Assembly: GCA_013336285.1 (NCBI GenBank)
Contig: JAAXTX010000009.1
Location: 1-32,040, forward strand
Direction of reading: 5' to 3'
Length of the DNA: 32,040 bases
Source of the DNA: Candidatus Moraniibacteriota bacterium
Lineage (GTDB): Bacteria > Patescibacteriota > Minisyncoccia > Moranbacterales > UBA1568
Shown: piece by piece, positions 20,335 through 24,174 of the stretch
How the letters are laid out: each line of letters begins with the position of its first letter
How positions within the stretch are numbered: the stretch's first letter is position 1
The notes under the pieces: model-generated
The model's input: only the letters and a program-made list of their open reading frames with translations
Told to the model about the DNA's origin: nothing
Database searches by the model: none
Position numbers and translations under genes: made by a program

Positions 20335-20811
20335 TTATGTTCCGAATGAGACCGGCACCAGGAAACTTTCGGCATGTTCCGGAAGCCCCGAAGGATTGTC
20401 CTTGGAAAAGACGATGGCACCGGTCCCCGCCCCCTTCGGGTCGAAGGTCACCTCCGCCTGAAACGGCACCGGTCCTTCCATCATCCAGTCCCCCGTGGCC
20501 TGCGCCGTACCGCTGCCGAGCATGTCACCGTTCCCGTCGACAATGCTCACGGGAAAACTTCCCTCGGAGAACCAGTTTCCGGCCGCTTCGCCGGTCAGTT
20601 TCACGGGACTCGTTATCACGGCACCCGATATCGGAAGCGTGACTTTGATATCCGATCCCTCGACGACCGCATCGTCGGCGCTCGCCGCCGTTTGTTCCGG
20701 GACATCCTTCGGTACGGGAGATTCCTCTTGCGCTCCCCTCCCGATCGCAAGGAATATGAACGCCACCAGACAGAGACCGAGTACGGGGATGATGATCCGT
20801 TTTCCGTTCAT
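20335..20811 (-). CDS. Gmad2-domain extracytoplasmic protein
   Basis: A 158-residue protein. The N-terminus MNGKRIIIPVLGLCLVAFIF is a hydrophobic signal or anchor with no clear lipobox. After an acidic linker comes a Gmad2 immunoglobulin-like domain: VTLPISGAVITSPVKLTGEA, NWFSEGSFPVSIVDGNGDML and MMEGPVPFQAEVTF are typical of it. Gmad2 is known from sporulation/germination proteins but is also common as a stand-alone surface domain. It is probably displayed at the cell surface. It sits between the methyltransferase-like gene (31 bp) and the PsbP-like gene (4 bp) in one operon. Confidence 0.88.
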   Translation of the reverse strand: MNGKRIIIPVLGLCLVAFIFLAIGRGAQEESPVPKDVPEQTAASADDAVVEGSDIKVTLPISGAVITSPVKLTGEAAGNWFSEGSFPVSIVDGNGDMLGSGTAQATGDWMMEGPVPFQAEVTFDPKGAGTGAIVFSKDNPSGLPEHAESFLVPVSFGT

Positions 20812-21611: not shown

Positions 21612-23174
21612 GTGCAAGATAAAAGGCAAAACGACAACTTCGACATCGAAAGGATGTCCAGAGAAACCGGTATTTCAATAGATACCATCAACCGTACGCT
21701 CGGTATGAAACCGGAAGTGACACGACCGAGACAGACCCAGATCGACCCGGACACCGAGGCAAGGGAGGCGTATCGTTCCGCTCCGGAAGGTTCGGAAACG
21801 AGAAAGAACGCCTTTGAGAAATGGCTTGGGCTCGTGACCACCGCACATGAGGCGAAAGTCGTGCATGATGCCGCGTCCGACGATTCGAAGATGCAAAAAA
21901 CGGCGTTTGAAAAGTGGCTCACGCTCGTGACAACCGCGACGGAAGCGGAGGAGGCGTACGATGCGGCGCCCGCCGGTTCGGAAGCGAAAAATACCGCACT
22001 TGAAAAGTGGAACGCGCTTTCGTTCAAGCAGGTCAAAGAAGCGACCGATGTCGAAGCGGCGGAAGCCGCGTACAATGAAGCGCCCGACGGTTCGGAAGCG
22101 GAAAAAGCCGCGGTGGAAAAATGGCTCGGACTCGTGACCACGTTCGATGAGGCGGAAGACTTGTACAACTATACGCCGAGCGGTTCGGAAGCGGAAAAAG
22201 CCGCGGTGGAAAAATGGCTCGGACTCGTGACCACCACCGATGAGGCGGAAGCGGTATATGATGCAACGCCTGACGGTTCAGCGGCACAATATTCAGCGCT
22301 GAATATATGGCTGGATCTCGCTACCACTATCGATGAAGTGAGAGAGGTCTACGATAACGCCCCCGAGGGTTCGAAAGTTCATACAGCCGCACTGAAAAAA
22401 TGGAACGGACTTTCGTTCAAACAGATCGAAGAAGCGACCGATGTCGAAGCGGCGGAAGCCGCATATGATGACGCGCCGGACGATTCGGATGCGCAAAATG
22501 CCGCGCTGACCAAGTGGCTCGAGCTGTCGACAGACGTCGATGACGCGGAAGCCGTATACGAAGCGGCACCGAGCGATTCAGAAATTGAAAAAGCGGCACT
22601 GGACAAATGGATCGGATTCACAACCACCCCCGAGGAAGCGGAAGCCGCATACGATGCCACACGCGACGGTTCTGAAGCGCAAAGGGCCGCGTTGAAGAAG
22701 TGGAACAGACTGTCCCTCAAACGGCTTGAGGCGGCAGTCACTGTCGAAGACGTGGAAACCGTGTACAATGATGCACCGACCGATTCGGAGGCGCAAAGGG
22801 CCGCGATCGAGAAATGGCTCGGACTGGCAAGCACGGCGAAAGAAATGAAGGCCGCACACGATGCCACACCGAGAAATTCGGAATCACGAAAGGCCGTACT
22901 GAAAAAATGGGACAGGCTCTCGCTCAGGCAGGTCGACGCGGCGATCACCATCGAGGAAGTGATCGCGGCGTATGATGACGCGCCGGACGATTCGGAGGCA
23001 CGGAGAGTCGCGCTTGAAAAGTGGAACGGACTTTCACTGATGCAGATCAGGGCAGCCACGACCGCGGGCAAAGCCGAAGCCGCGTTCCGTAGCACGCCGA
23101 ATAATCCGGAAACGAGAAAAACGGCGATGCGAAAAATCGCGAGCTTCTACGGATGGCAGGAACAGCCGCGGTAG
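21612..23174 (+). CDS. Protein of 14 tandem alpha-helical repeats (31/38 residues) with N-terminal HTH-like segment
   Basis: A 520-residue protein. The GTG at 21612 follows AAGGAGG, six bases upstream. Residues about 12-36 (DIERMSRETGISIDTINRTL) resemble a LacI-type helix-turn-helix. From residue ~55 to the end there are 14 units of the form xAYxxAPxxSExxxxALxKW(L/N)xL. Nine units are 31 residues long and five are 38. Units with Leu or Ile after the Trp are 31; those with Asn or Asp carry an extra S(F/L)xQ/RxxxA segment. The pattern suggests two helices per unit and an alpha solenoid, perhaps a protein-protein scaffold. There is no signal peptide or membrane helix. It stands alone and is closed by a strong terminator. 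I do not recognise the family. Confidence 0.92.
   Translation: MQDKRQNDNFDIERMSRETGISIDTINRTLGMKPEVTRPRQTQIDPDTEAREAYRSAPEGSETRKNAFEKWLGLVTTAHEAKVVHDAASDDSKMQKTAFEKWLTLVTTATEAEEAYDAAPAGSEAKNTALEKWNALSFKQVKEATDVEAAEAAYNEAPDGSEAEKAAVEKWLGLVTTFDEAEDLYNYTPSGSEAEKAAVEKWLGLVTTTDEAEAVYDATPDGSAAQYSALNIWLDLATTIDEVREVYDNAPEGSKVHTAALKKWNGLSFKQIEEATDVEAAEAAYDDAPDDSDAQNAALTKWLELSTDVDDAEAVYEAAPSDSEIEKAALDKWIGFTTTPEEAEAAYDATRDGSEAQRAALKKWNRLSLKRLEAAVTVEDVETVYNDAPTDSEAQRAAIEKWLGLASTAKEMKAAHDATPRNSESRKAVLKKWDRLSLRQVDAAITIEEVIAAYDDAPDDSEARRVALEKWNGLSLMQIRAATTAGKAEAAFRSTPNNPETRKTAMRKIASFYGWQEQPR
22088..22141 (+). repeat. Exact 54-bp repeat, copy 1 (copy 2 at 22181-22234)
   Basis: The 54 bases encoding GSEAEKAAVEKWLGLVTT are identical in repeat units 4 and 5, 93 bp (31 codons) apart. 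This indicates a recent unit duplication or gene conversion within the repeat gene. Confidence 0.9.
22181..22234 (+). repeat. Exact 54-bp repeat, copy 2
   Basis: Identical to 22088-22141, offset by exactly one 31-codon unit. Confidence 0.9.
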
Positions 23175-23193: not shown

Positions 23194-23219
23194 GCCCGGA
23201 CAGCACAATGTGTCCGGGC
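23194..23219 (+). terminator. Terminator of the repeat-protein gene
   Basis: The stem GCCCGGACA / TGTCCGGGC with an 8-base loop is followed by CTTTTTATTTT. Its T tail is the left half of a 26-bp palindrome (23219-23244) shared with the opposing terminator. Confidence 0.9.
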
Positions 23220-23276: not shown

Positions 23277-24174
23277 TCACAAGGGCGTCTGCTCGCTCAT
23301 TTGTTGCCGATAGTTCCGTTCGTTCTTGAGGAACGCCTCGTACGTATCCGGATTGATGGCCGCTCCATGACGGATGATCATCGGATGCTGCATTCCCTCC
23401 TTGAAGTATTCGTCATTGCGAAGGGCCGACAGGAACGCTTCCTCGATACTGATGCATCCGTCCCTATTCCGATCACCGGAACTCTCCCTGAAAGCGGAAA
23501 AGAACGCCTGTGGAAACGAATCCGACTTGCTTGTTTCGTCGGATTTCGATGCCGCTATCGCGATATAATTCTTATTCGCGGCGATCTTCTCGGCAAACCC
23601 GCCCCCCGTAGCACTGATCGAACACGAATACCGCATGCTTGGTGCGGAGTTCGCTGAAATACGACGCGAATTCGTTCGCATTGATATCGTTCCCGGACGT
23701 GCAGCTGAGCGTCGATACCGTGACCTCGCGTTTGCCGTTCAGGTCGGATATCGTCGTTTGGTCGCCATGATCGGTGGTATACACGAAGAACCTGTCTTCC
23801 GGCCGTATGCGGTCCCGGAGATGCCGTATCAGTGTCCTGATATTGATATTGGACGCCTCCCCGTCCACCGGATACCACGGCTTCCTGTCTCCGTCGCCGT
23901 CCAGGATATATATTTCCGACCGGCGATACCCGTTTTCAAGCAATACCTGATAGATGATGGAAGTATTACCCTGATATCGATCGTCGGAATTCCCGCTGAT
24001 CACGATGGCGAATTTCGACGGCTCCTTTACCGGAGCTTCGTTTTTGAACCGCTTCGTAAGACTGGCCGAAGGCGTCGTCTCCTCCGCAGGTTCATCAGGG
24101 AAACAGCCCGTCAGAAACACCATAAGAACGAGCAACGGTACCGAAAAGATTCGATACGCGAAACGAATTTTCAT
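23277..24174 (-). pseudogene. Caspase/legumain-like (C13-type) lipoprotein with EF-hand, frameshifted
   Basis: Frame 1 (24174 to 23572): a lipoprotein signal FSVPLLVLMVFLTGCF (lipobox Cys 24), then FAIVISGNSDD, the catalytic His in TTDHGD (His 136) and the catalytic Cys in VFVFDQCYGG (Cys 188), as in clan CD proteases. Directly after, at a C6 tract (23602-23607; G6 on the coding strand), the frame is lost. With one G removed it reads GGGFAEKIAANKNYIAIAAS and continues in the other frame to 23277, including a complete EF-hand loop DRNRDGCISIEE. The repaired protein would be 298 residues. It has a good promoter and the ribosome-binding site AAAGGGGG. It is either a true pseudogene, a phase-variable tract or a sequencing error; both catalytic residues lie before the break. 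Confidence 0.82.

Follow-up and report, generated by a model that had tools for sequence, protein, structure and literature searches.

Tandem arrays built from alpha-helical modules of more than one length have precedents. Repeat region 2 of CagY, which belongs to the Cag type IV secretion system of Helicobacter pylori, contains arrays of A motifs (38–39 residues) that are punctuated by single B motifs of 31 residues, and the region changes size by in-frame deletion and duplication (PMC2581425). PLS-class PPR proteins are alpha-solenoids whose repeat variants likewise differ in length and are arranged in blocks of several units that recur along the protein (PMC7190159). The superfamily comprising TPR, HAT and Sel1 proteins shares the general layout of two antiparallel helices per unit.

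Here, we analyzed a repeat protein encoded in a stretch of 32,040 nucleotides from a Candidatus Moraniibacteriota bacterium, which is termed the window in the following. The closest described analogue of its array is CagY repeat region 2; both are bacterial, both consist of tandem alpha-helical modules of two lengths (38–39 and 31 residues) and in both one module punctuates runs of the other (PMC2581425). The original prediction had known of no named family with the two-length rule; two-length helical arrays as such have a precedent in CagY, even for the combination of 31 and 38 residues (PMC2581425). The proteins also differ: the runs are formed by the 38-residue motif in CagY but by the 31-residue unit in the window protein; CagY is rich in cysteine with conserved, regularly placed motif cysteines, whereas the window protein contains none among its 520 residues; and CagY is flanked by putative transmembrane domains, while no hydrophobic N-terminal segment, signal peptide or transmembrane segment was seen in the window protein. 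With no cysteine and no profile match (no CagY model is among the Pfam hits with E values up to 10), membership of the window protein in the CagY family is not shown.

The gene for the repeat protein looks real. A strong Shine-Dalgarno sequence (AGGAGG) lies a few bases 5′ of its GTG start codon, a terminator-like hairpin follows the stop codon, its GC content by codon position (0.60/0.46/0.62) has the low second position of coding frames, and nonsynonymous differences between units (mean pN 0.28) are fewer than synonymous ones (mean pS 0.57), which indicates that the reading frame is constrained and that the units are under purifying selection. The long open reading frames on the opposite strand (0.43/0.57/0.62 and 0.47/0.63/0.63) are without such a coding pattern. 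A sigma-70 consensus promoter was looked for at the gene and none was found. Between positions 22001 and 23000 of the window, GC skew (0.113) and AT skew (0.321) are both strongly positive, because the gene is opposite in direction to its neighbours and many of its codons specify Glu, Ala and Lys. The features of the locus are:

21612–23174, + strand: open reading frame of the repeat protein, from a GTG start codon to a TAG stop codon, 520 aa
21612–21755, + strand: N-terminal part, 48 aa, unrelated to the units; helical motif FDIERMSRETGISIDTINRTLGM followed by a linker predicted with low confidence
21756–21848, + strand: unit 1, short (31), W-L
21849–21941, + strand: unit 2, short (31), W-L
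21942–22055, + strand: unit 3, long (38), W-N; predicted helix B residues 124–142
22056–22148, + strand: unit 4, short (31), W-L
22149–22241, + strand: unit 5, short (31), W-L; 84% nucleotide identity to unit 4
22242–22334, + strand: unit 6, short (31), W-L
22335–22448, + strand: unit 7, long (38), W-N; predicted helix B residues 255–274; junction 86% identical in nucleotides to that of unit 3
22449–22541, + strand: unit 8, short (31), W-L
22542–22634, + strand: unit 9, short (31), W-I
22635–22748, + strand: unit 10, long (38), W-N; predicted helix B residues 355–374
22749–22841, + strand: unit 11, short (31), W-L
22842–22955, + strand: unit 12, long (38), W-D; predicted helix B residues 424–443
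22956–23069, + strand: unit 13, long (38), W-N; predicted helix B residues 462–481
23070–23171, + strand: C-terminal cap hairpin, Ile in place of Trp (RKIASFYG)
23194–23219, + strand: intrinsic-terminator-like hairpin of 9 pairs (7 GC), then a T-rich tail, about 20 nt past the stop

The array consists of 13 Trp-containing helical hairpins and the C-terminal cap. All units follow the same grammar, i.e., a Thr or Ser N-cap, helix A (EAEAAYDAAP), a turn, a Ser N-cap and helix B (EAxxAALxKWxxL), and the columns that vary between them (8, 11, 16, 37 and 38) fall mostly in turns and at helix ends. Consecutive Trp residues are 31, 31, 38, 31, 31, 31, 38, 31, 31, 38, 31, 38 and 38 residues apart, the last distance ending at the Ile of the cap, which stands where a Trp would be; short units thus occur in runs of 2, 3, 2, 1 and 0, each closed by a single long unit. 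The original prediction had described 14 units from position 21777 onwards and had stated that the residue following the Trp (Trp+1) predicts which of the two lengths a unit has. This rule holds in all 13 units with a Trp: Leu or Ile is found in 8 of 8 short units (1, 2, 4, 5, 6, 8, 9 and 11) and Asn or Asp in 5 of 5 long ones (3, 7, 10, 12 and 13). The chance that five randomly placed long units among 13 would match Asn/Asp exactly is 1/1287, a post hoc figure for units that are not independent of each other. The presumed 14th unit is in fact a degenerate cap (GKAEAAFRSTPNNPETRKTAMRKIASFYGWQEQPR) and, having no Trp in register, cannot test the rule; the array itself is present where it had been placed but begins slightly earlier, as the first helix A already starts at 21756.

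When the DNA of the array was compared with itself, a 300-nt repeat family emerged, and the self-identity of the protein peaks at offsets of 131, 100, 231 and 69 residues with values at least as high as at the one-unit offset of 31. At offset 131, the most similar 93-nt segment reaches 87% identity and spans the long junctions of units 3 and 7. The array has therefore grown by the copying of blocks, each comprising two to four units. Among the five long junctions (Trp+1 to Trp+12), nucleotide identity is 53–86%, compared to a mean of 29% for in-frame stretches chosen at random (95th percentile 44%), and the junctions are best understood as descendants of one ancestor. As Trp+1 lies inside this copied cassette of about 12 residues, its correlation with unit length within the array is largely linkage by descent, and the residue is not an independent predictor. 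The proposal of two module types has to be narrowed in a similar way, since there are two types of junction but not two classes of unit bodies: nucleotide identity amounts to 0.657 between long units, 0.657 between short units and 0.644 between long and short ones (permutation p 0.27), which leaves a division of whole long and whole short units into two separate lineages unsupported. Similarity of units according to their position in the block received weak support (p 0.035).

Runs of short units that each end in a single long unit, taken together with the motif lengths and the in-frame deletion and duplication in CagY repeat region 2 (PMC2581425), would also suit a self-assembling or mechanical rod like that region, in which two motifs build a stable filament or sheath and the exact order of units matters little. 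We regard this as unlikely, though conceivable, for a protein that has neither cysteine nor a Pfam match and carries no signal peptide or transmembrane segment; moreover, no secretion genes were recognised among the scanned neighbours of the gene.

Structure prediction from the single sequence with AlphaFold2 yielded a mean pLDDT of 86.2 and a pTM of 0.59 for the whole protein, and a pLDDT of 90.9 and a pTM of 0.75 for a separate fragment comprising units 7–12. In the predicted models, tandem antiparallel helix pairs are stacked as a solenoid, as in the TPR/HAT/Sel1 superfamily, and local structure agrees between the two. On the basis of these models, the repeat protein is very probably the regular two-helix alpha-solenoid that had been anticipated, although the pTM of 0.59 makes its overall curvature uncertain and over-confidence of AlphaFold2 on repeat sequences has been reported for beta-solenoids (PMC11795689). 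Two helices are predicted for the N-terminal part (residues 3–19 and 23–29, pLDDT 44–74). Helix A has 10 residues in units 2–13. Helix B spans 12–14 residues in all short units of the whole-protein model, stopping 2–3 residues past the Trp, and 19–20 residues in all long units; the 7-residue insertion of the long units would hence lengthen helix B by about two turns. A distinct corner formed by the long units, for which the original prediction had suggested to look, is not seen: they adopt the same hairpin with a longer helix B.

The preference for Leu/Ile or Asn/Asp at Trp+1 would then probably be a matter of packing. In short units, where helix B ends just past the Trp, Trp+1 may be buried against the next hairpin, whereas in long units the helix would run on with hydrophobic anchors at Trp+5 and Trp+8, and Trp+1 would be exposed to solvent. 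A crude calculation of hydrophobic moments placed the extension off the same face, with directions differing by roughly 70–115 degrees; the packing explanation is thus unproven, and a simple continuation of one face is neither supported nor excluded by this result.

Searches of Pfam, NCBIfam, PHROG and PDB sequences returned no match above the cut-off for the repeat protein, in line with the earlier remark that no named family with this rule was known. Neither TPR nor HAT nor Sel1 families, whose units have 34 residues instead of 31 and 38, appeared among the Pfam and NCBIfam matches up to E 10. DUF4880 (Pfam, E 0.00046, 17 residues, below the cut-off) was rejected as compositional. The only phmmer matches in the PDB up to E 1 were the designed proteins dTor_12x31L (E 0.15) and dTor_9x31L (E 0.4), which by their names share the 31-residue unit. 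Foldseek against viral and PDB structures found generic solenoids with low TM-scores. Comparison of the whole model gave weak matches, including HAT proteins, with a best Z of 7.8, and the best natural matches of the fragment of units 7–12 were TPR proteins of the BamD type (Z 8.7–8.8; for 3qky Z 8.7, rmsd 5.1, 183 aligned residues), all of them in the range expected for a common helical arrangement. The best VIA-align match of the fragment was DHR53 (Z 9.2, rmsd 3.4, 128 aligned residues), which, like the dTor proteins, is artificial, has a single unit length and bears no evolutionary relation to the window protein. To judge from these comparisons, in which no family of the searched databases covers the protein, it represents an uncatalogued repeat family of an already known kind of system.

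A two-length array of alpha-hairpins is reminiscent of PLS-class PPR proteins (PMC7190159) and, with a few columns that vary between units, raises the question of a modular nucleic-acid binder that would read its target through a residue code along the array, as PPR, TALE or PUF proteins do. PPR proteins, however, are RNA binders of plant organelles with another consensus, and the window protein is strongly acidic (102 Asp and Glu versus 62 Lys and Arg, pI 4.6, net charge about −40, with −3 or below in 9 of the 13 units), which argues against binding of single-stranded RNA. The position of the variable columns at turns and helix ends also speaks against such a code, there is no PPR profile match in Pfam or NCBIfam, and matches to PPR, PUF or TALE were absent from the Pfam, NCBIfam, PDB and PHROG sequence searches. 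We therefore consider nucleic-acid recognition highly improbable.

A profile built from the window units alone was used to search 383 sampled genomes of the class and matched proteins in three other genomes as well as one paralog in the same genome. Smith-Waterman scores against shuffled sequences amounted to z 19.0 for G086, 16.6 for G360, 12.2 for the paralog and 8.8 for G343. The paralog (136 aa, contig 32, locus L012, positions 1384–1839, − strand) contains one long and one short unit; it is flanked by the terminal part of a topoisomerase I-like gene on one side and by a pyruvate kinase-like gene on the other. Together with the protein from G360 (100 aa), it constitutes a minimal version in which a related motif at the N-terminus precedes one or two hairpins and an RK(I/L) cap (RKLAKFFGY in the paralog, RKIYNLF in G360). 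The motif FDIERMSRETGISIDTINRTLGM is common to the window protein and the paralog and weaker in G360; elsewhere, a search for it gave weak matches only. A small family with this N-terminal motif, 38/31 hairpins and the RK(I/L) cap thus has more than one member. The protein from G086 (194 aa) has long units only and a hydrophobic N-terminus followed by Cys, and is perhaps a lipoprotein. G343, with a 34-residue unit, and G251, with z 7.7 to the window protein and about 1–4 to the other relatives, are possible further relatives. Candidates L014 and L022 were rejected, as was the match in G370 (z 3.0), which lies in a Lys/Glu-rich protein.

In the relatives, Trp+1 and unit length combine as W-D 38 and W-I 30 (paralog), W-N 38 (G360), W-D 37 (G251) and W-R 38, W-Q 38 and W-C 40 (G086). 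Across this small sample of eight units, polar residues (Asp, Asn, Arg, Gln) go with 37–38, Ile with 30, Cys with 40 and Ala with 34, and the rule generalises in part beyond the array in the looser form that polar means long and Ile/Leu means short. The array was absent from five congeners and 48 other relatives at the sensitivity used, scans for close relatives among genome contigs, viral contigs, phages and plasmids gave no match, and two neighbouring genes that were tested were likewise absent from the eight relatives examined and are genome-specific. The genes of this locus therefore appear to form a lineage-specific patch. Such a setting, together with the common descent of the long junctions, would fit a length rule that lacks functional meaning and arose neutrally as blocks were duplicated in a gene confined to the lineage. 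This we judge to be distinctly improbable, given that the association of polar residues with long and of Ile with short units recurs in diverged relatives as well as in the paralog, that the units are under purifying selection and that seven residues correspond almost exactly to two helical turns.

Other genes in the window deserve brief mention. A gene at 20335–20811 (− strand) encodes a small protein whose N-terminus is hydrophobic and which contains a Gmad2 immunoglobulin-like domain (E 5e-12). At 23277–24174 (− strand), a caspase/legumain-like gene (Peptidase_C13, E 5e-5) with a lipoprotein-like N-terminus is present in two overlapping frames, the break being located at a run of six G directly after a catalytic-looking DQCYGG, and its second half contains an EF-hand-like sequence (DRNRDGCISIEEAF); the split could stem from phase variation, from gene decay or from an error in the assembly. 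At the end of the contig (30776–31888, + strand) resides a gene for an AAA-family ATPase (E 9e-32) with a GC content by codon position of 0.41/0.31/0.23. As this stretch has 34% GC compared to about 55% for the window, the gene was probably acquired recently.

Taken as a whole, we favor, with moderate confidence, an account in which a solenoid of 13 units plus caps arose by block growth, probably owes the choice of residue at Trp+1 to packing and serves as a protein scaffold. In-frame duplication of blocks (31+38, 31+31+38 and 31+31+31+38) built the array and carried a single ancestral long junction, including the polar residue at Trp+1, to five sites, where the helices B extended by about two turns would form ridges on one edge of the solenoid. 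The acidic and apparently unsecreted protein would most likely bind at least one protein partner along its repeats, a role that we deem reasonably probable by analogy; the function rests on analogy because the gene has no partner, no evident operon in its surroundings and no orthologue in the five congeners. A more far-reaching reading, which we consider rather unlikely, would see here an undescribed solenoid family with a two-state junction cassette, either short with a hydrophobic Trp+1 or long with a polar Trp+1 followed by LS(F/L)KQ(I/V)xxA, that sets the length of helix B in each unit, such that the order of units determines shape or ridges for partner recognition.

The repeat protein overturns nothing that is known. 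It extends the range of alpha-hairpin repeats by an uncatalogued family from bacteria with small genomes, many of whose genes lack annotation, and offers a clean natural case in which the unit length of a solenoid switches by two helical turns via a short exchangeable junction. Its value lies in the design of repeat proteins and in the view that it affords of solenoid growth by block duplication.
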